DNA of 64,000 nt, from the NCBI GenBank assembly GCA_902604695.1, contig CACKZT010000001.1, forward strand, positions 1-64,000, read 5' to 3'. The stretch is from an uncultured Pelagibacteraceae bacterium. GTDB lineage: Bacteria > Pseudomonadota > Alphaproteobacteria > Pelagibacterales > Pelagibacteraceae. Shown here in pieces: positions 8,753-21,741 of this stretch. The translations under genes were made by a program, and so were the position numbers. The notes below the pieces were generated by a model. The model did no database searches and was not told where the DNA came from. It was given only the letters and a program-made list of their open reading frames with translations. Positions within the stretch are counted from its first letter, which is position 1; each line of letters opens with the position of its first letter.

Positions 8753-8989
8753 ATGTGCTCTAATACAATTAGTATGAGCGCAAAACCTGAAATAAACGAA
8801 AAAAATAACAACTTCTATTCTGCAAAAATAAATGAAGAAGAAACACATAGTTCTTCAAAAAAAGTAAATCTTAACGATTTAGTTGCAAGATTGCACGAAG
8901 AGAAGGCTAAAGAGAAAAAAAGTAATATAATTTTATCAGTTTCAGCCGTATCAGCGGTAGCAGTATTTGGAATAATACTTACCTTATAA
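8753..8989 (+). CDS. small membrane-anchored hypothetical protein (78 aa)
   Basis: 78 residues: a polar Asn/Lys/Glu-rich N-terminal half, then a positively charged amphipathic segment (VNLNDLVARLHEEKAKEKK) and a single C-terminal transmembrane helix (IILSVSAVSAVAVFGIILTL). The C-terminal helix and preceding lysines suggest a tail-anchored, cytoplasm-facing protein. A second possible start is the Met at residue 8. It ends tail-to-tail with the regulator gene on the other strand, overlapping by 6 bases. No family recognised and function unknown. Confidence 0.6.
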   Translation: MCSNTISMSAKPEINEKNNNFYSAKINEEETHSSSKKVNLNDLVARLHEEKAKEKKSNIILSVSAVSAVAVFGIILTL

Positions 8990-9946
8990 ATTTTTTTCTC
9001 TAATAAGACCCCTAAGTACTATTAGGTAAAAATCACTAAATTCTTTTATTATACTATCAGAAGTTTCTTTTAAAGAAGAAAAACCATCAGTATCTATCAA
9101 ATATCTTTTCGTAATATTATCTTTTTTTAACATTTTCATTGTATTTAATTTTTCCAATTTTCTTATGCACGTTGCTCTAGGCAATCCAGTCACATCAGAA
9201 ATTGAAGTTGCACTTATGCTAGGAATAGAAAAAGAGTTTCGTTTTGCTTTTTTATTTATATAATGATTTTCAAATGTGATAGAATTTTTTTTATAAATAG
9301 ATGATGCTTGTACTTCACATTCGATACATAATAAAAGCATTTCTAAATCTTTTAATTCTTTTTGCCATAAAGACATATATTTGCTCTGAGCACTTAAATA
9401 ATGATACCAATAAAACGAAAAATTTTTTTTAATTTCTTTTTTAATAAATTCTACAGAAAATTCAATTTTAAGCTTATCTGCTAAATTTCTTATCAAACTT
9501 GTAAGTATATCAATATGTTTTTCTATTATTATATTATAAGATTGTTTATCAGGCTCTAGAGGCGACCAATATATTCCATTATTGCTTTTTTTTAATATTT
9601 TATTTCTTAATAAATTTTGTATTTTTCTTCTAGTCGTTTCTTTTGGTAATTTTGTTGCACTTGAAATATTAATTAACTTTAATTTTTTTTGATTAATTTT
9701 TAAATGATTTATCCAAAAACTATCAAATGAAATGTCATAATCTAAATCGCTATCTCTTTGACGCAATATTTCATGATGTAAATTCTTTGCAAACATAAGA
9801 ACAATATTGGCTTTATCTAAATCTTTATTATACCTTTTGTAAACTTCGATTAAAAAATAACTTTGAATTTTATTGAATTCTAAATGTACATTTGAAAAGT
9901 TTTCCTTATAAATTTTTTCTATTACTTCTTTGTTAAGCTTCATCAT
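8984..9946 (-). CDS. putative transcriptional regulator with two winged-helix repeats
   Basis: 320 residues with no family I can name securely. Two segments look like copies of one winged-helix unit: about residues 90-135 (ISSATKLPKETTRRKIQNLL, then KILKKSNNG) and about 238-290 (ISATSISDVTGLPRATCIRK, then KMLKKDNITKRYLI). Both share an IS-x-x-TxLPxxTxxRKxxxL recognition-helix pattern followed by a Leu-Lys-Lys wing. Between and after them are Trp/Tyr-rich helices. It is encoded divergently from the DUF4956-CotH-VTC operon with a 123-bp shared spacer, the classic position for a local regulator. Regulatory function is inferred. Confidence 0.6.
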   Translation of the reverse strand: MMKLNKEVIEKIYKENFSNVHLEFNKIQSYFLIEVYKRYNKDLDKANIVLMFAKNLHHEILRQRDSDLDYDISFDSFWINHLKINQKKLKLINISSATKLPKETTRRKIQNLLRNKILKKSNNGIYWSPLEPDKQSYNIIIEKHIDILTSLIRNLADKLKIEFSVEFIKKEIKKNFSFYWYHYLSAQSKYMSLWQKELKDLEMLLLCIECEVQASSIYKKNSITFENHYINKKAKRNSFSIPSISATSISDVTGLPRATCIRKLEKLNTMKMLKKDNITKRYLIDTDGFSSLKETSDSIIKEFSDFYLIVLRGLIREKNL

Positions 9947-10069
9947 TTTGAATAAATTTTGACGTTTGCTTGATGTTCATTATGGGATATTTAAAACTAT
10001 ATTGATTTTATAGTCAACATACTAAATATTTCTATTTCTTTTATAAGAAAAAAAATATAAATATTCATA

Positions 10070-10687
10070 ATGGATGAAATAAAAGCTTTACTAATTTTAG
10101 TTTTAGGAGGCCTTTCTCTAAGATTTGCACTAACTCTTAACGGACAAGCTTGGGCTAAATCTCATGCTCAAACAGTTTCATTCATGATCCTTCCTTTAAT
10201 AACTTACGTCATAACAAAAACTATTACTGGAAATATTGCCCTTTCACTTGGAATGATAGGTGCGCTCTCAATTGTTAGATTTAGACATCCAGTAAAAAGT
10301 GCGCTTGAATTAATAATGTATTTTGATTTAATTACAATTGGTATTGCTACAAGTGTGAGGACTAAGTGGGCTATCCAACTAATAATAGGAACAATAATAA
10401 TTATTTATGCGGTAAAGTTCGCTCAAAAATTTGCTAAAAGTAAAGGGAAATCTTTTTATAACATTTCATTTAACGAAGGAATTTCATTAAATTCAATCGA
10501 GATAGTATCTTCAAAAAAAATAGCATTAATCGAGGAAAGCGATAATCTTATTACATCACACGAGAATAAAAGCCTTCCAGAAATCTCCTATAGAATGGCC
10601 TTTGAAACTAAAAAACAACTAGAGGAATTTAAATCAAAGATTGAGCAAGAAAATAGTATAAAAAAAATTGATGTAAATTTTAATTAG
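10070..10687 (+). CDS. DUF4956 membrane protein
   Basis: 205 residues. The N-terminal 125 residues contain about four membrane helices with the family-typical stretch IGALSIVRFRHPVKSALELI, a conserved Arg/Pro-rich cytoplasmic loop between helices. The C-terminal 80 residues form a soluble, probably ferredoxin-like domain (SFNEGISLNSIEIVSSKK onward). DUF4956 proteins are repeatedly found beside VTC-domain and CotH-type proteins in other bacteria, as here. Their role is unknown; a membrane partner of the VTC enzyme is plausible. It precedes the CotH-like gene by 5 bp in one operon. Confidence 0.85.
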   Translation: MDEIKALLILVLGGLSLRFALTLNGQAWAKSHAQTVSFMILPLITYVITKTITGNIALSLGMIGALSIVRFRHPVKSALELIMYFDLITIGIATSVRTKWAIQLIIGTIIIIYAVKFAQKFAKSKGKSFYNISFNEGISLNSIEIVSSKKIALIEESDNLITSHENKSLPEISYRMAFETKKQLEEFKSKIEQENSIKKIDVNFN

Positions 10688-10692
10688 GCTTT

Positions 10693-13029
10693 ATGAAAAA
10701 AAAATTTACCATTTTTTTTTTACTTATTTATCTAACCTTATCTTTAAATAGTGTTTTTTCAAAAAATATAAATTCACCCCCGCATTGCACTTTTGAAAAC
10801 AAAAAAAATCTTAAAGCTAATTCTGATATATTGATAAAATCTGTAAACATTGAAGTAAAAAATATAAGAAATTGGAGTAAAAATAGTTTAAGAATACTAA
10901 TTGGTAATTTTAGATGGATTCCAGACGAATATAAAAAAAGATTTAAGGCAAATGTAGTTGTAGAATATAAAAATGGTCTAAGATGCAATTTCAAAGCTAC
11001 AATAAGACATCACGGAGACCAAAAAGATCATATAGAACTTTCAGGAAATGCATTTTCACAAAGTATTGATGTGCATCTGAAAACGGGAAACATTGAGGGT
11101 ATAACAAAATTTAAATTATTAAGGCCCCAAACCCGAGGAAAATTTGAGGATGAGATTTTTATAAACGAAATATTAAGGTCGATAGGATATCTATCTCCAA
11201 GAACAAAATACATAACTACAAATATAAATGGCCTTAATTCCAAGATGATATTTCAGGAAAAAATAGCTAAAGAATTATTAGAATACAACTTAAGGAGAGA
11301 GGGACCACTATTAGAAGGTGATGAAAGATTTGTTTTCAGACTAGGTCAAAAACTTCCAGACAATCAGTTGAGCAACTTTTCAATTGGAATGATACCTTTA
11401 GTAGAAAAAGGCATCAATGCTATGTTGGCAAAACAACTTAATTCACAATTAATTAGCAAAAGCATAAATCACAAAAAAATTTCATTAGAAGCATTAGATA
11501 ATCTTAATTTAATTTATCTTCTTTATTCAAATAGTTATAAAGATAATCTAAATAATTTTTATTACTTTGACTATGATCTTGACAATAATTTATTAGGTTT
11601 TAACAATTCACAAAATATTCTTAAGCTTGATACTTACAATCTTCTGATTCAAGCAGTTAATGGTCAGCATGGCTTAGCTCCAAGTAACAGAAAATTTTAT
11701 TGGAATTCAATTGAAAATTATTTTGAACCAATTACGTATGACTCAAACATTGATTTAAATGCAAAACCCGCTTTTCTTAGATTACCATTAAGCTCAAAAT
11801 TTGAATCCTCATTTAAAAATGCTAAAAATATTTTAAATAATATCAATGTTGAAAAAATCGAACAAAGTATGAAAAAAAATGGAGTCAGTCTAAAAAGAAA
11901 TATCATTAATGAAAAAATAATATTAATTAAAAAAAATATTGAGCTTCTAGAAGTCTATTATAAAAATATGGATACAGATCTAATTAATCATAATCTTAAC
12001 AAAACAATCAATGAAAATCTTTGGTCTAAATACTATAGTTCATTATCTGAAGTCGCACCAAATACCTATATTGTTAAGTTTAAAGAAGAGTCAAATAGTA
12101 AAGAAAATTTTGAAAAATGTAATTTAGAAAAACTTAAATGTGAAAACTTTATTTTAAACTTAGATCAAGAGTTAGATTTATTAGAGGGAGCTTTAACTAT
12201 TAAGAACAAAGAGTATCAATACGTTGGATACAACCTTTACAATAATGAAATCAAAACTAACAACCTATATAAAAATGTAAAAATTGATAATTCGTCTTTA
12301 TATTATAATAACGGAATAGATATAGACTATTCTGAAGATAAAAAAATTTTAAATATCAACCAGAGTCTACCAGGAGCAAGAGCATTTTTTTTAAATGGTA
12401 ATCTAAATAACTTGGAAATTAATTTTAATGGATATGACCATAAATTATCAAATGTTCCTAATTTTCCAATAGATATAAAAAATTTAACAGGTTGTTTGAC
12501 TTTAGTTAACTTAGATTTAAAAGACATAGTTATAAATTCAAATCATTCGTCATGTGAAGACTCATTGAATTTAATAAATGTTACTGGAAATTTAAAAACT
12601 ATCAATATATCAAATTCTTACATGGATGCATTAGATATAGATTTTTCGAATGTATCTATAAATGATATTAAAATAAATAATGCTAATAATGATTGTGTAG
12701 ATTTATCGTTTGGTAAATATAAGATTAAAAGTATTTCAGCAAATAGATGTGGGGATAAAAGTTTGTCTGTTGGCGAACAGTCTGAGCTAAAATTAGAAAA
12801 TTTAATTGCATATAATTCTAATATAGGTGTCGCTTCAAAAGATAGTTCTGTAACGGATATCACCGAAGCAAATCTTGATAATCTTAAAACTTGTTTATCT
12901 GCTTACAATAAAAAACAAGAATTTAATGGATCTTTATTAATTGTCGGAGATTTAAACTGTAGCAATTATACTAAAAGATTAGATATAGATGATCATTCTA
13001 ATATTATAGTTAAAAAAGGAAATACATGA
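10693..13029 (+). CDS. secreted CotH-like kinase with beta-helix-like C-terminal region
   Basis: 778 residues with a signal peptide (MKKKFTIFFLLIYLTLSLNS, cleavage near VFS). Residues about 90-400 resemble the CotH kinase fold: FKATIRHHGDQKDHI, a KLLRPQTRGKFEDEIF helix, EKIAKELL, and the metal-binding Asp region FEPITYDSNIDL near residues 345-356. From about residue 475 on there are short Asn/Asp/Ile-rich repeats (NLTGCLTLVNLDLKDIVI, NLKTINISNSYMDALDI) with the periodicity of a right-handed beta-helix. CotH enzymes phosphorylate proteins in spore coats; the bacterial VTC-linked forms have no known substrate. The protein would act outside the inner membrane. Its stop overlaps the VTC gene start by 4 bp. 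Confidence 0.75.
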   Translation: MKKKFTIFFLLIYLTLSLNSVFSKNINSPPHCTFENKKNLKANSDILIKSVNIEVKNIRNWSKNSLRILIGNFRWIPDEYKKRFKANVVVEYKNGLRCNFKATIRHHGDQKDHIELSGNAFSQSIDVHLKTGNIEGITKFKLLRPQTRGKFEDEIFINEILRSIGYLSPRTKYITTNINGLNSKMIFQEKIAKELLEYNLRREGPLLEGDERFVFRLGQKLPDNQLSNFSIGMIPLVEKGINAMLAKQLNSQLISKSINHKKISLEALDNLNLIYLLYSNSYKDNLNNFYYFDYDLDNNLLGFNNSQNILKLDTYNLLIQAVNGQHGLAPSNRKFYWNSIENYFEPITYDSNIDLNAKPAFLRLPLSSKFESSFKNAKNILNNINVEKIEQSMKKNGVSLKRNIINEKIILIKKNIELLEVYYKNMDTDLINHNLNKTINENLWSKYYSSLSEVAPNTYIVKFKEESNSKENFEKCNLEKLKCENFILNLDQELDLLEGALTIKNKEYQYVGYNLYNNEIKTNNLYKNVKIDNSSLYYNNGIDIDYSEDKKILNINQSLPGARAFFLNGNLNNLEINFNGYDHKLSNVPNFPIDIKNLTGCLTLVNLDLKDIVINSNHSSCEDSLNLINVTGNLKTINISNSYMDALDIDFSNVSINDIKINNANNDCVDLSFGKYKIKSISANRCGDKSLSVGEQSELKLENLIAYNSNIGVASKDSSVTDITEANLDNLKTCLSAYNKKQEFNGSLLIVGDLNCSNYTKRLDIDDHSNIIVKKGNT

Positions 13030-13616
13030 GTTTTAGAATAGAAGAAAAGTTATATATTGATAAAAATCAAATAGTAGATTTTAAAGAATTTTTAAGTAAA
13101 AATCAGGCAAAACCCATCCATCATCCTAGGCAAATTAAAAGTCTTTATTTTGATAATAAAAATTTAGAGATGTTTAGTGACTCAATAGAGGGCTTAACAC
13201 CAAGAAAAAAAATTAGAATTAGAAGATATCCTAATGAAAAAGATACTTCTTTATATTTTGAAATCAAAAATTCTTCTGTTGAAGGAAGGCACAAAACAAG
13301 AAAAATTATAAATGAAAAAATACAAAAAGAATTAATAGATAAAGGATACCTTGATAATCAATACGGAGAAGTTCTACCAAAATTATTTGTAACTTATAAT
13401 CGTGAATATTTTCAAATAGACGACACAAGAATTTCAATAGACACAAATTTAAATTATCAAACTATACTAAATGATAAATATTTTAGTGATTTAAGAACAA
13501 TAATTGAAATTAAAACCTCAATTAATAAAGACTTAGATGATTTGACAGAAATGTATCCTTTCCAAAAAATTAGATTTTCAAAATATTGTCTAGCTGCTGA
13601 AAAGTTATTAATATAA
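13026..13616 (+). CDS. VTC-domain (polyphosphate polymerase-like) protein
   Basis: 196 residues that match the VTC tunnel domain along their whole length. Basic tunnel motifs are visible in order: RIEEKLYI, SLYFDN, RKKIRIRRYP, LYFEIKNSSVEGRHKTRK, TYNREYF, RISIDTNLNY, TIIEIKT and IRFSKYC. In yeast Vtc4 the same Arg/Lys and acidic residues polymerise ATP-derived phosphate into polyphosphate. Whether this bacterial member makes polyphosphate is not established. No signal peptide, so it is cytoplasmic, presumably at the DUF4956 protein. Translationally coupled to the CotH-like gene (ATGA overlap). Confidence 0.88.
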   Translation: MSFRIEEKLYIDKNQIVDFKEFLSKNQAKPIHHPRQIKSLYFDNKNLEMFSDSIEGLTPRKKIRIRRYPNEKDTSLYFEIKNSSVEGRHKTRKIINEKIQKELIDKGYLDNQYGEVLPKLFVTYNREYFQIDDTRISIDTNLNYQTILNDKYFSDLRTIIEIKTSINKDLDDLTEMYPFQKIRFSKYCLAAEKLLI

Positions 13617-13618
13617 GT

Positions 13619-14653
13619 TTACTTTATTTTCTTTAAATCTGAATACATCATTTCCTTAACAAGTGATTTAAAATCTGTTTTAGGTTTCCATTTTAATTCT
13701 CGTCTTGCTTTGGAGGCGTCTCCTCGTAAAATATCAACTTCTGTTGGTCTAAAATAAATAGGATCAACCTTTATAAGTGTTTTGCCAGTCTTTTTGTCAA
13801 AACCTACTTCTTTAAGACCTTTCCCTCTCCAACTAATTTTAACGTTAATAAATTTAAAAGCTTCCTCTACAAACTCTCTAACAGAATGGCTTTTACCAGT
13901 TGCTATCACATAATCTGATGGTTTTTTGGTGTGTAGCATTTTCCACATACTCTCCACATAATCTTTTGCTGAGCCCCAATCTCTTTTAGAATTTAAATTT
14001 CCTAAAGATATAAACTTTCTTTTGCCTCTAAATATTTCAGCCACTCCTCTAGTTATTTTTCTTGAAACAAAAGTTTCTCCTCTTCTAGGGCCTTCGTGGT
14101 TGAATAGTATCCCATTTACAGCAAAAATATTATATGCCTCTCTAAAGTTTACTGTTGTCCAGTAAGCATATAATTTTGCAATAGCATAAGGACTTCTTGG
14201 TCGAAATGGAGTTTTTTCATTTTGAGGAATTTGAGTATTACCAAAAATCTCAGATGTAGAGGCTTGATAATATTTAGTTTTTTTTTGAAGCTTAAGAACT
14301 CTTATTGCTTCCAATATTCGCAAGGCTCCAATTGCATCAGAGTTAGCAGTAAATTCTGGAATTTCAAAACTTGTTCTTACATGTGATTGAGCCCCAAGAT
14401 TATAAATTTCATCAGGTTTATGCGATTGAATTAATCTTAAAATATTACTGCTATCTGTCAAATCGCCATATACAAGTTTAAAATTTTTTATTGGTTTCTC
14501 GTCATTATAAAGATGATCTATTCTTTGTGTATTAAAGCTTGATGATCTTCTTTTTACACCGACAACAAAATATTTTTTTTTTATTAAAAATTCAGCTAAC
14601 AGTGAACCGTCTTGGCCCGTAACACCTGTTATTAAAGCAATTTTTTTAGCCAT
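13619..14653 (-). CDS. gmd: GDP-mannose 4,6-dehydratase
   Basis: 344 residues, full-length Gmd. The NADP-binding motif [17 protein letters not shown] and the following [15 protein letters not shown] are diagnostic. The catalytic Thr/Ser-Glu and Tyr-Lys are visible in STSEIFG and SPYAIAK, and [15 protein letters not shown] is the conserved substrate loop. It converts GDP-D-mannose to GDP-4-keto-6-deoxymannose in the cytoplasm. Its start overlaps the upstream SDR gene by 8 bp, and a ColD/RfbH-type dehydratase follows upstream in the same operon, which points to a 3,6-dideoxy sugar rather than fucose as the end product. Confidence 0.95.
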
Positions 14654-15479
14654 TTTTTTTTGAAATTATTTTATAAATATTAACTTTTCTTTTTGGTTTC
14701 CAACCAGTTTTTTTAATTTTTTTTATGTCTGCTATAGCATATGTCATTTTAGACTCTAATTTTATATCTGCTTGTTTTTTATATATCTTACAAAGTTGAT
14801 TAACAATAGAAATTAAACTTAATTCTTTACCAGATGCAATATTAAACGTCCCTTTGCATTTCTTTTTATATAGGTGAAATATAGCATCGGTAATATCCTG
14901 CATAGTTAAAAAATCCCTAATATGACCTAAGTTTTCAAAAAAAATTTTACCCTTCGCGTTTCTAATTCTATTTAAAACTGACGGGAAAAAAAAAGATTTT
15001 GATTGTTTTGGATCAATAATACTAAATATTCTTCCAATACAATAAGGAATATTATATTTAGCTAATTTTTTTTTTATATATTTTTCAGCCAATAATTTCG
15101 TATATCCATATTTTGAAAAAGGTTTAGTAACAGATGATTCTTTTAATAAAAATTTTTTTTTTCTAAAATTATATACATGTGATGATGAAGCGAAAAAAAA
15201 CCAATTAATTAATTTCTTTTCCTTAACTATCACATCAATTAAATTTTTAGTGCCCAAATAATTTATTTTTTTAGCCTTATCGTAGTTTTTATTTACTTCT
15301 ATAATAGGGACAACGGCAGCTAAATGAATTATTGCATCTAAATTTTTATTATCAATCCACTTTTTGATGTCTTTTTTATTTCTTATATCACCATTAAATT
15401 TTATAAATTTGAATTTTTTTGATTTAATTAAACTTTTACCTACTAATCCTGTATGACCTGTAATCCCACATTTTTTCAT
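14646..15479 (-). CDS. SDR-family nucleotide-sugar epimerase/reductase
   Basis: 277 residues, extended short-chain dehydrogenase fold. The NAD(P) motif is [12 protein letters not shown], the Asp/Ile pair of the second strand is visible in FNGDIRN, and the catalytic Ser and Tyr-Lys lie in [11 protein letters not shown] and [11 protein letters not shown]. Between Gmd and a ColD-like dehydratase it is a good candidate for the ColC-type step (epimerisation and reduction of a GDP-4-keto-3,6-dideoxyhexose), though plain 4-reductase activity is equally possible. Starts right after the dehydratase stop (6 bp) and overlaps gmd by 8 bp. Confidence 0.8.
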
Positions 15480-15485
15480 AAAATC

Positions 15486-16721
15486 TTATAATGAATTTAA
15501 TAAAGTTTGTGAAAGAAATTTCAATTTATTTAGCGAAATTAATTCTGTTTGTAGACCAATGAAAAAACCTCGATCTTCAATATCCTGTGCATTCTTAAAT
15601 TTATGTTTATTTTGATTTAGTTTGTAAAGTTTTACACTTGGTTGATTTAAAAAATTACCACTAATTATTGGTCTAGTTTCGATACCTTTTTTATTGAGTT
15701 TTTTAAGATATTGTTTTTTTTTATTCTTATATTTTTTATTAAGGATTATTGGCAAACCAAACCAACTAGGTTCAAGATTTTTAATAGGCTCTAAAAATTG
15801 AAACTGGTTATTCCATAAATTAGAATTTTTAAGAGAATTTATTATCTTACCTCTATTTTTTGCTCTATTTCTTTTCATTAAGTTTAATCTTTTAAATTGG
15901 CTATAACCTATGGCAGCAGTTAGATCTAATGGCCTCAAATTAAAACCCGAGTTAACAAAATTGAAACTTTTATCATTTTTTTTGTTAATGCCCCTATCCC
16001 AACCATGAGCACGTAGCTTATGAATTAAATCGTAATCTTCATCCTTGTTACAGACTATCATTCCACCTTCTCCAGAAGTTATTTGGTGAGATATATAAAA
16101 AGAGTAAGTTCCAAATCTTCCAAAGGTGCCTAGGTGTTTTTTATTATATCTAGATCCTAAAGACTCACAAGTATCTTCAATTAAAGTGAGATTATTTTTA
16201 TCTACAATTTTTTTTAATTTGTTCATATCGGTAGAGTTCCCTAAAATATGAACAGCTAAAATAGCTTTTGTTTTTTTGGTTATAGCTTTCTGAACTTTAT
16301 ATAAATCTAAATTTAAAGTATTGGGATCGATATCAACAAACTTTGGCTTTAATCCCGCTTGCACTATTGGCCACAAAGAAGTAGACCAACAAAGTGCTGG
16401 AATTATACACTCATCATTATTAAATATTTTTTTTTTATTTTTAGGATTAATCAAAGCAAAAAAAGCTAACAAATTTGCAGATGATCCAGAATTAACCATT
16501 AGAGCATGTTTTATTCCCAAATATTTTGCGAACTCTTTTTCAAATTTTTTAGTTATCGATGACATGGTGATTCTACCACTTAGTAGAACCTTACAACCTT
16601 CAATTATATCTTTCATTTCAAACGGGTTACTTGCTAAGGGATATTTGTTGGAACTTTTTTCTCTAAGATGGGAATATTTGTTAATCAATTTTTTTAGAAT
16701 CAAATTGTCGTTTATTTTCAT
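15486..16721 (-). CDS. ColD/RfbH-type PLP sugar 3-dehydratase (DegT family)
   Basis: 411 residues of the DegT/DnrJ/EryC1/StrS fold. The N-terminal half has the cofactor motif NSGSSANLL and the aspartate/glutamate pair LIEDTCESLGS. At the position where aminotransferases carry the Schiff-base lysine the sequence reads SFYISHQITSGEGG, so the lysine is replaced by His212. That substitution marks the dehydratases ColD and RfbH, which use the His as base to remove the 3-OH rather than transaminate. With gmd in the operon, GDP-4-keto-6-deoxymannose is the likely substrate. RfbH-like use of a CDP sugar cannot be excluded. Confidence 0.85.
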   Translation of the reverse strand: MKINDNLILKKLINKYSHLREKSSNKYPLASNPFEMKDIIEGCKVLLSGRITMSSITKKFEKEFAKYLGIKHALMVNSGSSANLLAFFALINPKNKKKIFNNDECIIPALCWSTSLWPIVQAGLKPKFVDIDPNTLNLDLYKVQKAITKKTKAILAVHILGNSTDMNKLKKIVDKNNLTLIEDTCESLGSRYNKKHLGTFGRFGTYSFYISHQITSGEGGMIVCNKDEDYDLIHKLRAHGWDRGINKKNDKSFNFVNSGFNLRPLDLTAAIGYSQFKRLNLMKRNRAKNRGKIINSLKNSNLWNNQFQFLEPIKNLEPSWFGLPIILNKKYKNKKKQYLKKLNKKGIETRPIISGNFLNQPSVKLYKLNQNKHKFKNAQDIEDRGFFIGLQTELISLNKLKFLSQTLLNSL

Positions 16722-16726
16722 ATCAA

Positions 16727-17644
16727 TTATTTATATTTATTATTAAGATAATTACACCATTTTTCAAAGTGTGGTTGATAATAAAAATCAAAAGAATCTT
16801 CACCAACGGGCTGGACAACTGGAAAATAGGGGCATGCCTCTAAAATACGTGGAACTTTTAAAGCCTCAGCTATTGGATAAGCAACTGATTGATTTCCAAT
16901 GAAAAATCTAGATGATTTGATTATACTTGCCATTTCGAGGTAATCTTTACAATCATATAAAATTAGATTGGGTATTTCTTTTTTTAAATCATCATATTCT
17001 TCTTTAATACCTACAAATATTATATCGTCGTAGTTGGATAAAAATTTATAATTTATAAAGTTATTTCTGTATCTAAATGTTCTGTGTATAACAATCTTAT
17101 TTTTTAATTTTTCATGTGGAGGTACATCCATATAGGGTTTGGAAAGATCTACTTGGATTCCACAAATATGAAAATACCATCTAGGAGAATTAAAGAGGAT
17201 ATTCACGGGAAGTTTCCTAAATAAATCTAAATCTATGTCAATATCTTGATTGTCAAATTTTCCGGCATGGTTAATATAATTTTGAGATTTTAGAACAGGT
17301 AAAAAAAGTTTTAAGATTCTATCATCAACGTAAACTGTTCCTGCTGGATGCTTATAATAAGGAACAGGCATTAATTTATTTGATTTTACATAAAAATTGC
17401 ATTCATGTGTTTTTGAAAGTTCTTTTACCATGGGCAGGGCATACACTAAATCACCACAGTGACCAGAGTGAAGAAAATTAAGTTTTTTTTTATTTCTTAT
17501 ATTTTCTAAAATTTTATAAATTATATTTTCGTAATTCTCTTTGAATACGACTGTATCATTTTCAATTTTTTCTTGCGACTTCAGAAATCTATATTTTGTC
17601 CTATCAAAAAGCTTATAATAATATTTTTTAAAATTTATTTTCAT
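16727..17644 (-). CDS. GT9/heptosyltransferase-like protein
   Basis: 305 residues. The stretch NFLHSGHCGDLVYALPMVKE resembles the glycine/aspartate loop that opens ADP-heptose:LPS heptosyltransferases (GDxxxALP), and the C-terminal IGNQSVAYPIAEALKVPRIL resembles the nucleotide-sugar-binding end of that fold. Similarity is partial, so a GT9-like or GT-B-fold glycosyltransferase is the best description; acceptor and donor are unknown. It is first in the minus-strand polysaccharide operon (5 bp before the ColD-like gene). The 164 bases upstream form a divergent spacer to the GT61 gene, in which I see no strong motif. Confidence 0.6.
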   Translation of the reverse strand: MKINFKKYYYKLFDRTKYRFLKSQEKIENDTVVFKENYENIIYKILENIRNKKKLNFLHSGHCGDLVYALPMVKELSKTHECNFYVKSNKLMPVPYYKHPAGTVYVDDRILKLFLPVLKSQNYINHAGKFDNQDIDIDLDLFRKLPVNILFNSPRWYFHICGIQVDLSKPYMDVPPHEKLKNKIVIHRTFRYRNNFINYKFLSNYDDIIFVGIKEEYDDLKKEIPNLILYDCKDYLEMASIIKSSRFFIGNQSVAYPIAEALKVPRILEACPYFPVVQPVGEDSFDFYYQPHFEKWCNYLNNKYK

Positions 17645-17808
17645 TAAGGTATTTTAGAATAAACATTACATCATTATCGAATATTTGACTTACTAAAATT
17701 TACTATATAAATCAATAATTCCATAAAATAAATGTAGTAATGAGTTGCTTACTTTATAAAATGAAACTATTATTATCATTAAAAGAGTAATAAAAATTAC
17801 CAAATAAT

Positions 17809-18921
17809 TTGATTCATTTTAAAAAAAAATTACAAGAATTATTTAAAAAAGTTTCTATAAAACTTTTTACCATTTTATATGGTAAAATTGACGGTAAAAT
17901 TAGTTCTCTTAACAACCATAACGTAGAAATAAAACGGATTAATTTCGGAAACAATATTCACTATAAAGTTCATATAATTAAAGGATCAAGAATTTACACT
18001 AATAGAATACACGATACTGCTTATATCCTTAAAAATAAGATTTTAGTTGGACCTTCATATCAACTAAGAAATAACAAAAATACTGATTGTGAAAATAATA
18101 TTGTTTTAAAACAAGGAACTCCAAGAATTAAAAAAAAACTAAAGGGAAAAATTTTATCTTTATTATCTGGTGGTGGTGCAAATAGTAACTACTGGCATTG
18201 GATCTTTGATGTATTGCCCAAACTACATATTGCTAGCAAAATATACGATTTAGATAAAATAGATTATTTTCTTTTTCCCGGATTAAGTGAAAATTTCCAA
18301 AATGAGTCTCTAGATTTAATTGGGATACCTCTGCAAAAAAGAATATCAAGTGAAAATTTTAGACATATCGAAGCTGAAGAGATCATTGTTCCCGATCATC
18401 CTTATAATTTTAAAAATGATCCTTCTTATGACTCCTTAAATATTCCTGGTTGGATAATCATTTATTTGAAAGATTTGTTTAAATTAAATGAAATTAAAAA
18501 ATCTTTTCCAAAAAAATTCTATATAGATAGATCAGACTCAAAATCTAATCATAGGCATTTAAGAAAAATAATAAACGAAGATGAAATAAAAAAAATATTA
18601 ATAGATAATAATTTTGAAATTATTATTTTGAGCAATCTAAGATTTGATGAACAGGTTACATTATTTAAAAAAGCCGAATTTATAGTAGGTCTACACGGTG
18701 CAGGATTTGCCAATCTAGTGTTTTGTGAAAAATCTACTAAAGTAATTGAGCTTAAATCAAAATCCTCAGGAGATATAGTAGGTAATTTGTCAATAAAAAA
18801 TAATTTAAATTTTGATTGCATTTCTGTAAATCCAAAAACTATTCATACCAACGTACAATTAGGAGATATTGATATACCCTTAGATGATTTAAAAAAAAAA
18901 TTATCCATTGAAAGAAATTAA
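17809..18921 (+). CDS. GT61-family glycosyltransferase
   Basis: 370 residues. The family is recognised from SGGGANSNYWHWIFDVLPKL (around residue 120-140), FYIDRSDSKSNHR and the C-terminal GLHGAGFANLVFCEKSTKVIEL, which are the characteristic blocks of DUF563/GT61 enzymes. These transfer pentoses or hexoses to surface glycans. The only usable start is a TTG at 17809 preceded by no Shine-Dalgarno; there is no in-frame ATG before the first conserved block, so an unusual start is likely. It ends 26 bases before the tRNA gene. Confidence 0.8.
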   Translation: MIHFKKKLQELFKKVSIKLFTILYGKIDGKISSLNNHNVEIKRINFGNNIHYKVHIIKGSRIYTNRIHDTAYILKNKILVGPSYQLRNNKNTDCENNIVLKQGTPRIKKKLKGKILSLLSGGGANSNYWHWIFDVLPKLHIASKIYDLDKIDYFLFPGLSENFQNESLDLIGIPLQKRISSENFRHIEAEEIIVPDHPYNFKNDPSYDSLNIPGWIIIYLKDLFKLNEIKKSFPKKFYIDRSDSKSNHRHLRKIINEDEIKKILIDNNFEIIILSNLRFDEQVTLFKKAEFIVGLHGAGFANLVFCEKSTKVIELKSKSSGDIVGNLSIKNNLNFDCISVNPKTIHTNVQLGDIDIPLDDLKKKLSIERN

Positions 18922-18947
18922 AAAACTATTATAAATCTTTCAATAAC

Positions 18948-19024
18948 GGCGAGGTAGCTCAGTTGGTTAGAGCACAGGACTCATAAGCCTGGGGTCGGCG
19001 GTTCGAATCCGCCCCTCGCTACCA
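18948..19024 (+). tRNA. tRNA with CAT anticodon (Met elongator, or Ile2)
   Basis: A complete 77-base cloverleaf with encoded CCA (19022-19024). Acceptor GGCGAGG pairs with CCTCGCT (one G-T), the T-arm is GGCGG/CCGCC around TTCGAAT, and the anticodon loop is CTCATAA. Elongator Met is favoured by resemblance to GGC...GTAGCTCAGTTGGTTAGAGCA-type Met tRNAs; lysidine-modified Ile2 is the alternative. The last anticodon-stem pair appears to be an A-G mismatch. It sits between two glycosyltransferase genes on the same strand, only 10 bases before the next start. Confidence 0.92.
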
Positions 19025-19034
19025 ATGATTTAAA

Positions 19035-19832
19035 ATGTATAAATTTTGTTTATCACATAAATTTCACAAGCATATGGATGAAATAGGCTATCAACCTGTA
19101 GGACTAGGAGAGGATAACAATTTTCCAAACAATTGGCTTAGAGACAATACTGAAAATAATATAAGTAAAAAAAACAAATATTATGACATGTATACTTTTC
19201 ATTATTGGTTATGGAAAAATAAACTTGAGTCTTTGGAGGATAATAAATGGATTTGTTTTTCAACCTACAGAAGATTTTGGAGTAATTTAGAAAAAACCGA
19301 CAATCAAAATAATTTAAAAAATTGTATAATTCAAACTCAACCAAAAGAGTGGGAAAATTATGATACGATACTCACTGAGCCCACAGACTTAAAAAAAATA
19401 AAAATTTCTAAAATAATAAAAAAAGGAAAAAAAATGATTCTTAAAAATCCTTCAATTTTATTTAACAAAAATAAAAGAAATATCAAATTTCATTTTGATT
19501 TAATGCATTATAGCGGCAATTTGGATAAAGCCTTAGATTTGATGGATACAAAAGAAAAAAACGAATTTACTGAGTATCTTAATAGAAATACAGAAATAAA
19601 TTTTTGGAATTTATTTTGTTGCAACTCTAAGGATTTATTAAACAATTGGTATGAGAGTGTTTTTACATGGTTGTTTAGGTGTGAGAAAATATTTGGTTTT
19701 GAAGAGCTAAAAGGTTATGAAACTGGACGAATATATGCTTATTTGGCTGAGAGATATTTGCCTTATTGGTTTAAAAAATACGGCAATACAAGAACTTGGC
19801 CAACTTATTTTTATGATCACCAAAAAAAATAA
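19035..19832 (+). CDS. DUF4422-like glycosyltransferase
   Basis: 265 residues. The arrangement YQPVGLGEDN, then DNTENNISKKNKYYDMYTFH, then WLWKN and CFSTYRRFW matches the DUF4422 layout (Y.PV.G....D.tG.NIs.kN..y.E.T..YW.WKN..., HYRR), a family found in capsule and LPS loci and annotated as putative glycosyltransferases. Late in the protein come HFDLMHY and SWLF-type segments ending with ERYLPYWF. It starts 10 bases after the tRNA CCA end, so its mRNA is probably produced by processing of a tRNA-containing transcript. Confidence 0.7.
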   Translation: MYKFCLSHKFHKHMDEIGYQPVGLGEDNNFPNNWLRDNTENNISKKNKYYDMYTFHYWLWKNKLESLEDNKWICFSTYRRFWSNLEKTDNQNNLKNCIIQTQPKEWENYDTILTEPTDLKKIKISKIIKKGKKMILKNPSILFNKNKRNIKFHFDLMHYSGNLDKALDLMDTKEKNEFTEYLNRNTEINFWNLFCCNSKDLLNNWYESVFTWLFRCEKIFGFEELKGYETGRIYAYLAERYLPYWFKKYGNTRTWPTYFYDHQKK

Positions 19833-19843
19833 TTATTTTTAAG

Positions 19844-20689
19844 ATGACTAACAAAGATATAACCATAATTATTACTTCATTTAGAAGTGATGCAAAAATA
19901 GAGAGTTGTTTAAAATCTATAAATCAAGAAATAAAAGTTTTAGTTATCGAAAATTCTAATAATAAAGAATTAAAAGATAAAATAGAAAATAAATATTCTA
20001 ATGTAAAATGTTTTTTAAGTGATAAAAATCTCGGTTATGCTAAGGGTAACAACATAGGTTTAAAAATGGTCGAAACAAAATATTGTATTATTTTGAATCC
20101 TGATGCTGAGCTTTACGATAACACAATAGAAAATTTTTTGTTAACCGCGAAAAAAAATCCAAATTTCGCAATTATAGGACCATATATTCAAGAAGATACA
20201 GATGTATCAAAAAAAGTTTTAAATAAAAATTCTTTAATCGAAGTAAATAATTTGAAAGGATTTGCATTATTTCTTAACATGAAAGAGTTTTTAGACATAG
20301 GATTTTTTGATGAAAATTTTTTTATTTATTTTGAAGAGATTGACTTATGTCGAAGGCTTAAGTTGAAAAATAAAAGAATATATTTGGACCCCACAATAAA
20401 AGTTAAGCATTTAGGAGGTAGTTCACACAATTCTGAATTTAATGAAGAAATGGAGCTTTCTAGGAACTGGCATTGGATGTGGTCTACTTTCTATTATCAT
20501 AGAAAATATAATGGTTATTTTATATCTTTTATAAGAATTTTACCAAAACTTATTTCATCATTAATTAGAATAATCTTTTATACATTTATTTTTAATAGTA
20601 AGAAGAGGAAAATATATTTTCAAAGATTTTCTGGAATATTAAATTCGATGATGTTAAAAAATTCATGGTACAGACCAAAAATATTTTAA
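19844..20689 (+). CDS. GT2-family glycosyltransferase
   Basis: 281 residues, GT-A fold family 2, rhamnosyltransferase-like. Visible blocks are the N-terminal ITIIITSFRSDAKIESCLKS, NLGYAKGNNIGLK for nucleotide binding, the DXD-type ILNPDAEL, and FFIYFEEIDLCRRLK with the catalytic acid, followed by VKHLGGSSH. The C-terminal third has hydrophobic and basic stretches consistent with membrane association. It is 11 bases after the DUF4422-like gene and 38 bases before an epimerase gene, all on one strand. Donor and acceptor unknown. Confidence 0.88.
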   Translation: MTNKDITIIITSFRSDAKIESCLKSINQEIKVLVIENSNNKELKDKIENKYSNVKCFLSDKNLGYAKGNNIGLKMVETKYCIILNPDAELYDNTIENFLLTAKKNPNFAIIGPYIQEDTDVSKKVLNKNSLIEVNNLKGFALFLNMKEFLDIGFFDENFFIYFEEIDLCRRLKLKNKRIYLDPTIKVKHLGGSSHNSEFNEEMELSRNWHWMWSTFYYHRKYNGYFISFIRILPKLISSLIRIIFYTFIFNSKKRKIYFQRFSGILNSMMLKNSWYRPKIF

Positions 20690-20727
20690 TGGATTGATTT
20701 TTCTTATTTATTCTATACAAAATAATA

Positions 20728-21741
20728 ATGTCTAAAAAATTAAAAATATTAGTAACAGGTGCTGCAGGTTTTCTAGGTTCTCATTTATCAGAAAAATTAG
20801 CTTTACTTGGTCATGAAGTCGTCGGTATTGACAGCATGATTGGAGGCTACGAGGACAATGTTCCAAAAAATATCACTTTTCATAAAATGGACTGCTGTGA
20901 CTTAAAAAGTGTTCAAAGAATCATGAAAGAAATTGAAGTTGTTTATCATTGCGCTGCAACAGCTCATGAAGGATTGTCAGTTTTTTCTCCTTTTGAAATA
21001 ACTAGAAATAATTTTTTAGCATCAGTAGGAATATTTTCAGCTGCCGTAAATGAAAAAGTTAAAAGAATAATTTTTTGCTCATCAATGGCTAGATATGGAT
21101 CACAAGTTACACCTTTTTCGGAAAAAATGAATCCCTCACCAGTTGATCCTTATGCGATATCGAAAGTAGCCGCTGAACAAGTTTTAATTAATCTTTGTGA
21201 ACTAAATAAAATTGAGTGGGTTATAGCTGTGCCACATAACATAATAGGGCCAAGACAGAAATATGATGACCCTTTTAGGAACGTAGTATCAATAATGTTA
21301 AATAGAATGTTGCAAGGCAAAGCTCCAATAATTTATGGAGATGGAGAGCAAAAGAGGTGTTTTTCATACATAGATGATTGTCTTAGCTGTCTAGTTCCAA
21401 TGCTTGATCAGAAAAATTTAAATAAACAAATTATTAATATTGGTCCAGATGAAGAATTTGTCACAATAAATAAAGTTGCTGAGATTTGTTCAAATATAAC
21501 TGGTGTAAATTTAAACCCAATACATAAAAAAGATCGTCCTAGAGAGGTAAAACATGCTACTTGTTCTGCTGACAAGGCAAGAGAGTTACTAAATTATAAA
21601 ACAACAGTAAGTTTACAAGATGGTATTAAAAAAACATTTGATTATATTAAAAAGAGGGGAGTCAGACCTTTTAACTATCATACAGAAATAGAGATTAAAA
21701 ACGATCTAACACCAGAAACTTGGAAAAAAAGAGAAATATAG
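20728..21741 (+). CDS. NAD-dependent nucleotide-sugar epimerase/dehydratase
   Basis: 337 residues, extended SDR. NAD motif ILVTGAAGFLGSHL, catalytic Ser in FCSSMARYG, catalytic pair in DPYAISK, and HNIIGPRQKYDDPFRNVVS with GDGEQKRCFSYIDDC as substrate-site segments. The pattern resembles UDP-glucose/UDP-GlcNAc 4-epimerases, but MARYG in place of the usual VYG motif and several Cys residues set it apart. Last gene of the plus-strand glycan block. It ends 2 bases before the converging apt gene. Confidence 0.8.
   Translation: MSKKLKILVTGAAGFLGSHLSEKLALLGHEVVGIDSMIGGYEDNVPKNITFHKMDCCDLKSVQRIMKEIEVVYHCAATAHEGLSVFSPFEITRNNFLASVGIFSAAVNEKVKRIIFCSSMARYGSQVTPFSEKMNPSPVDPYAISKVAAEQVLINLCELNKIEWVIAVPHNIIGPRQKYDDPFRNVVSIMLNRMLQGKAPIIYGDGEQKRCFSYIDDCLSCLVPMLDQKNLNKQIINIGPDEEFVTINKVAEICSNITGVNLNPIHKKDRPREVKHATCSADKARELLNYKTTVSLQDGIKKTFDYIKKRGVRPFNYHTEIEIKNDLTPETWKKREI

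Follow-up and report, generated by a model that had tools for sequence, protein, structure and literature searches.

A DUF4956–CotH–VTC operon of an uncultured Pelagibacteraceae bacterium combines a putative polyphosphate polymerase with a CotH-fold protein that carries a PL3-like beta-helix

What might a streamlined marine bacterium gain from an operon that joins a membrane DUF4956 protein, a CotH-like protein, and a VTC-domain enzyme? We examined this question in a 64,000-nucleotide stretch of DNA from an uncultured Pelagibacteraceae bacterium (GCA_902604695.1, contig CACKZT010000001.1, positions 1 to 64,000; hereafter, the window). Gene coordinates confirm the three-gene operon and the spacing given in a preliminary description of this DNA: 5 bp separate the DUF4956 gene from the gene for a 778-aa protein, which overlaps the VTC gene by 4 bp (ATGA). 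The DUF4956 and VTC identities proposed there also hold, with both proteins above their Pfam cut-offs (PF16316, 42.5 bits versus 30.6; PF09359, 92.2 bits versus 23, E = 4.8e-26). Promoter and terminator scans gave signals at or below shuffle expectation, and an NCBIfam search returned no informative families. Coordinates of all features are collected in Table 1.

Table 1. Features of the operon and its surroundings in the window
Feature	Position	Strand	Basis or description
Divergent winged-helix-like gene	8984-9946	-	320 aa; outside module
DUF4956 gene	10070-10687	+	205 aa; PF16316
CotH-fold + beta-helix gene	10693-13029	+	778 aa
Exported two-domain protein (predicted)	10693..13029	+	A2 alignment, AF2, Foldseek, family profile vs PDB
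N-terminal hydrophobic segment, aa 1-23	10693..10761	+	MKKKFTIFFLLIYLTLSLNSVFS; predicted helix 2-23
CotH-fold domain, aa 48-435	10834..11997	+	Profile alignment to 5jd9
His326	nt 11668-11670	+	Catalytic-Asp place (alignment to 5jd9)
Asp350	nt 11740-11742	+	Metal-binding Asp position
Right-handed beta-helix, PL3-like, aa 527-765	12271..12987	+	AF2 strands; Foldseek; sub-profile
Invariant ladder, aa 622-740	12556..12912	+	A2 columns
VTC gene	13026-13616	+	196 aa; PF09359
Surface-glycan island	13619..21741	.	Pfam; context, not core

In the VTC protein, R4, E6, K8, R64, R66, E79, K81, R126, D139, E161, K163, and K186 are invariant in 35 relatives. A family-profile alignment, in which the Vtc4 chain numbering is offset by three, places K8/R64/R66/K81 on Vtc4 K200/R264/R266/K281 and R126/R135/E161/K186 on R361/R373/E426/K458; for the Vtc4 positions beyond R264, R266, and E426, roles are taken from the Vtc4 structure. 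The R264A/R266A/E426N form of Vtc4 is an impaired mutant (PMC9911596). The preliminary description had named loss of the tunnel Arg and Lys residues as one outcome that would refute its hypothesis; all of the Vtc4 tunnel residues that we examined are kept, which makes polyphosphate polymerase activity plausible for the predicted protein. The operon shares with the eukaryotic VTC complex the VTC fold family, every catalytic tunnel residue examined, and a linked membrane partner (there, the Vtc1 channel and the catalytic TTM domain of Vtc4). It differs in that its VTC protein is about 200 aa long and SPX-free and in that the membrane partner is DUF4956, from another Pfam family than Vtc1.

The AF2 model of the DUF4956 protein (pLDDT 86) predicts about five membrane helices at the N terminus and, at the C terminus, an ACT/RAM-like ferredoxin domain; Foldseek matched ACT and Lrp RAM domains, identifying the ACT-like half alone. 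The motif GALSIVRFR is invariant across 33 relatives (alignment A3), and several members of the family weakly resemble MgtC. The model agrees with the description of SIR_1592 as four TM helices plus an ACT domain (PMC12345266). Pel loci of Gram-positive bacteria are known to include genes for CotH, a polyphosphate polymerase, and DUF4956 as accessories (PMC7112168), and the SIR_1592-1594 group occurs in the Pel loci of streptococci, clostridia, and bifidobacteria (PMC7112168, PMC12345266). In Streptococcus intermedius, deletion of the DUF4956 and CotH homologues alters Pel level and aggregation, and the VTC homologue is dispensable for both; the authors of this 2025 study reported that they did not find the three genes so arranged anywhere but in Pel loci (PMC12345266). 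Among 30 triad-carrying genomes of the order, PelG is absent from all 30, and we reject a Pel locus as the setting of the triad. The operon and the Pel accessory group have in common three adjacent families, a link to exopolysaccharide, an exported CotH protein, and a DUF4956 protein that combines an ACT domain with roughly four or five TM helices. They differ in that FN3 is reported for SIR_1594 (PMC12345266), whereas the CotH protein here carries a PL3-like beta-helix, and in that the triad here lies outside Pel loci.

The middle protein had been called a CotH-like kinase, and only the first half of that label fits well. Searched alone, the 778-aa protein matches no Pfam family at E ≤ 10 (CotH and PF03211 included). 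The CotH relationship is nevertheless supported by a Pfam CotH match in 9 of 35 relatives, by a family profile that reaches the kinase domain of Bacillus cereus CotH (5jd9, E = 5e-16), and by a Foldseek match of the AF2 model (pLDDT 86.9, pTM 0.88) to 5jda (E = 3e-9). A further profile (A8), built mostly from short-type CotH proteins, did not reach CotH in the PDB, and the assignment thus leans on A2 and the fold. Residues 1 to 23 are predicted to form a signal peptide or membrane anchor. Where 5jd9 reads NFDGFVHN, the window protein reads NGQHGLAPSN, and His326 falls on the loop Asp of 5jd9, which we take to be the catalytic Asp of CotH (B. subtilis D228/D251); this equivalence comes from a sequence alignment containing a one-residue gap. 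The His is found in 31 of 35 relatives (A2) and in 71 of 75 members of a wider set, Asp350 in 31 of 35 and 75 of 75, and Glu189 in 34 of 35 and 75 of 75. Because a His stands at the canonical catalytic Asp, the kinase label appears doubtful on sequence grounds. One genome (G333) carries both kinds of CotH, a beta-helix-free lamin-tail protein with the canonical GDWPDHN (D-x4-N) and a beta-helix protein with GSHAQTYGN, each next to a VTC–DUF4956 pair of its own, and so the Asp-to-His change appears to mark the beta-helix class. Relative to the CotH spore-coat kinase (B. cereus 5jda), then, the window protein keeps the predicted fold and the metal-binding Asp position but has a His for the catalytic Asp, a loop longer by one residue, no Pfam CotH match, and a fused beta-helix.

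This beta-helix was missed when the protein was described as having a single activity, and the strongest constraint in the operon sits there. The ladder (E622 D623 / D645 D648 D650 / D667 D670 / D688 K689 S692 E695 / K716 D717 / K740, with E622 nearly invariant) occupies about a fifth of the protein and holds 15 of the 18 invariant A2 columns (hypergeometric p = 9e-9). Two series, D623/D645/D667/K689 and N626/D648/D670/S692, recur at 22-residue steps, one residue per coil. PL3 pectate lyases are the top Foldseek matches to the beta-helix (prob 1.00). At the sequence level, the best PDB match of the beta-helix sub-profile is the PL3 lyase 1ee6 (weak, E = 0.067), and PF03211 gave weak matches in 3 of 35 relatives (best E = 0.0025) and none at E ≤ 0.01 in 38 wider members. 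Conservation counts from our wide scan are biased at the columns used as beta-helix patterns, and it is A2 and four examples from a phylum draw that are unbiased; mean column identity of the CotH–beta-helix protein is about 25% across four phyla.

Comparison with PL3 lyases (1ee6 from Bacillus KSM-P15; C. bescii 4yzq/3t9g) shows a shared beta-helix fold in which D63, D84, D106, and K107 of 1ee6 align with the invariant D645, D667, D688, and K689; K689 is kept in 35 of 35 relatives and is preceded by the invariant D688. In 1ee6, Ca is bound by D63, E83, and D84, with K107 as a catalytic residue, and in C. bescii PL3 the base is K108 (PMC10992409). The window protein differs in having Asn666 for E83 and S692 for Q110, in the additional invariant residues D648/D650/E695/K740, and in its fusion to CotH; K716 lies near the place of PL3 catalytic K129/R132, beyond the stretch aligned to 1ee6. 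The PL3 lines of evidence are individually weak, and together with the identity of the conserved residues they make a putative enzyme active site, of a lyase or epimerase, the best reading of the modeled beta-helix. A literature search, with subscription literature outside its reach, found no description of a CotH–pectate-lyase-like fusion. A solo CotH–beta-helix paralogue (L075:796-3114, = L174) occurs in a neighborhood without VTC or DUF4956.

We then considered how consistently the three genes travel together. Among 297 Pelagibacterales genomes, 34 have matches to the 778-aa protein, 37 to VTC, and 32 to both, a co-occurrence (Fisher p = 2.6e-35) that bears out the expectation of consistent linkage. 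At the 40 VTC loci of the order, the CotH protein lies within two genes in 38 and DUF4956 within three genes in 35; both partners are present in 34, with all genes on one strand in 32, and absences mostly coincide with contig ends. VTC is commoner in Pelagibacterales (37/297) than in a draw from the phylum (7/298; p = 1e-6). A cross-phylum scan of GTDB genomes with beta-helix patterns, and therefore biased to that motif, found the three genes together in 67 of 79 loci, 64 of them contiguous as DUF4956-CotH-VTC. The triad occurs in SAR11, SAR86, SAR116, Roseobacter, Amylibacter, and Marinomonas (locus L147 of the culturable Marinomonas sp. MED121 among them) and also in Prochlorococcus, Actinomarina, Acidimicrobiia, Flavobacteriales, and Saprospiraceae. 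The CotH-protein tree mixes phyla (its four phylum labels change six times, against a minimum possible of three), with, for example, a SAR116 and a Flavobacteriales sequence as sisters at 100, which suggests horizontal transfer of the triad across four phyla, in a data set that includes metagenome-assembled genomes with possible binning errors. Spread on plasmids or phages was rejected, with no match in either collection. Some genomes (G044, G257) carry two or three distinct triads each; the three divergent paralogous triads of G044, a SAR11 genome (L066, L073, L092), suggest a different target for each. In long-type triads (L080, L081, L082, L083; e.g., L083:4822-5844), a gene of ∼340 aa without a Pfam match lies between DUF4956 and CotH (cut by a contig end in L082) and encodes a possible fourth subunit.

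The operon abuts a surface-glycan island that extends to about 21.7 kb, encodes GDP-mannose dehydratase, epimerases, DegT aminotransferase, GT61, DUF4422, and GT2, and is followed by housekeeping genes. Homologues of these glycan genes were found in 14 of 37 triad flanks versus 1 of 20 control stretches (p = 0.01). The remaining 23 flanks are without them, and some triads stand beside ilv housekeeping genes; the link between triad and glycan genes is therefore real but not constant. UDP-sugar dehydrogenase (PF03721), considered as a marker of uronate supply, is uninformative, being present in all 77 genomes, triad positive and triad negative. Within the island, a 305-aa gene without a Pfam match (16727-17644) is about 46% conserved in same-site glycan islands of other genomes.

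On the other side lies the divergent gene, previously proposed as a dedicated regulator of the operon. The gene is present, and it gives weak winged-helix signals and sub-threshold Pfam helix-turn-helix hints, but its dedication to the operon did not survive comparison. Its family is found in 201 of 297 genomes, versus 37 for VTC, and the seven closest homologues elsewhere (roughly 35-51% identity) are all in genomes without a VTC match. Six of the seven have as neighbor the taurine-type aminotransferase, ald, or the small open reading frame found here at 8753-8989, marking the same backbone site; in the triad-free loci that we inspected further, glycan genes come next. Since the closest orthologues occupy this site in triad-free genomes, we reject the dedicated regulator, and, judged by its relatives, the gene is a backbone neighbor of the island and of the ald/taurine block. 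The small open reading frame itself encodes 78 aa with a C-terminal membrane segment, overlaps the end of the putative regulator gene by 6 bp, and in triad-free relatives is about 50% conserved, with the ald/aminotransferase block on one side and the regulator on the other.

From linkage, predicted folds, residue conservation, and distribution, we infer with moderate confidence that the operon is a transferable accessory for cell-surface polysaccharide, a module that processes glycans outside the cytoplasm and has an arm making polyphosphate. A cytosolic, Vtc4-like VTC protein would make polyphosphate from ATP, and DUF4956, a membrane protein with an ACT-like sensor domain, would gate VTC or couple it at the membrane. 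The CotH–beta-helix protein would be exported to the periplasm or surface, where the PL3-like beta-helix, with its DK pair and Ca-binding acid ladder, could cleave or epimerize an acidic glycan and the remodeled CotH domain could bind or transfer phosphate. In favor of this reading are the linked triad, the kept Vtc4 tunnel residues, the PL3-like fold and concentrated constraint of the beta-helix, the glycan genes in triad flanks and beside the window operon, the DUF4956-VTC-PHO4 operons described below, and the Pel phenotypes of the S. intermedius DUF4956 and CotH homologues. Against it count the weak PL3 sequence similarity, the Asn at PL3 E83, the 23 of 37 flanks without the glycan genes, and the dispensable VTC homologue of S. 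intermedius.

A phosphate polymer might instead be the product itself, made by VTC, exported by DUF4956, and attached or used outside by CotH, with the glycan incidental. Outside the order, DUF4956 adjoins VTC or lies one gene off at 8 of 8 VTC loci examined, a CotH gene is present at 5 of 8, and 2 of 8 (G395, G379) have the arrangement DUF4956–VTC–PHO4, the last a phosphate transporter gene. VTC and DUF4956 are thus the constant pair, and PHO4 can replace CotH elsewhere in the phylum; that such operons exist points to a tie between the pair and phosphate. The DUF4956-VTC-PHO4 (PiT) operons at L235:5023-8012 and L237:6621-9772 come from two genera of another alphaproteobacterial family and may show what the pair does at its core. 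The constant pair speaks for this alternative, and so do its phosphate-transporter variant and the intact VTC tunnel, both of which also favor the preferred reading, as does the eukaryotic precedent, in which VTC couples synthesis to translocation (PMC9911596). We found no PPK1 in the window's own assembly (79% complete), which also fits; across the order, PPK1 is present in 13 of 37 VTC-positive and 134 of 260 VTC-negative genomes, a nonsignificant exclusion (p = 0.08), so that VTC is not simply a PPK1 replacement and its role as a substitute is rejected. With that replacement unclear and the invariant PL3-like beta-helix left unexplained, we regard a polymer product as unlikely.

Less likely still is a reading in which polyphosphate exported by VTC and DUF4956 serves as phosphoryl donor and CotH, perhaps through its His, phosphorylates a glycan held or trimmed by the beta-helix. 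It would account for the linkage of a kinase-fold protein to a polyphosphate polymerase and for the near-constant His326 (71/75) beside fully kept Asp350 and Glu189 (each 75/75), and it suits a periplasm, which is without ATP; against it, the His/Asp equivalence comes from the gapped alignment described above, and we know of no precedent for polyphosphate-fed extracytoplasmic phosphorylation. We hold in similarly low regard a noncatalytic surface protein, a CotH pseudokinase with a Ca-stabilized, glycan-binding beta-helix scaffold (adhesin or matrix anchor), for although the catalytic Asp of CotH is lost, PL3 E83 is replaced by Asn, and many beta-helix proteins bind without cutting, a catalytic-type Lys and an Asp ladder strictly invariant across four phyla would be unusual for a scaffold.

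Glycan processing outside the cytoplasm, supported by a polyphosphate-making arm, is thus the reading that we prefer. The boldest reading, which we consider a long shot, is a polyphosphate-powered machine for extracytoplasmic glycan phosphorylation and trimming, in which VTC and DUF4956 would supply the donor to a His-type CotH fused to a PL3-type lyase or epimerase; if real, such a machine would get around the absence of ATP beyond the membrane, and it would have spread across marine bacteria of several phyla. Families known from Pel biofilm loci here form a recurrent module of marine bacteria, among them streamlined SAR11, SAR86, Actinomarina, and Prochlorococcus. What is new is a CotH variant predicted to lack the catalytic Asp and to carry a lyase-like active site. 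Residues K689, D688, H326, and D350, together with R64/R66/E161 of VTC, make the role of bacterial VTC–DUF4956–CotH systems testable, and the phosphate-transporter variant of the operon offers a further handle on their function.
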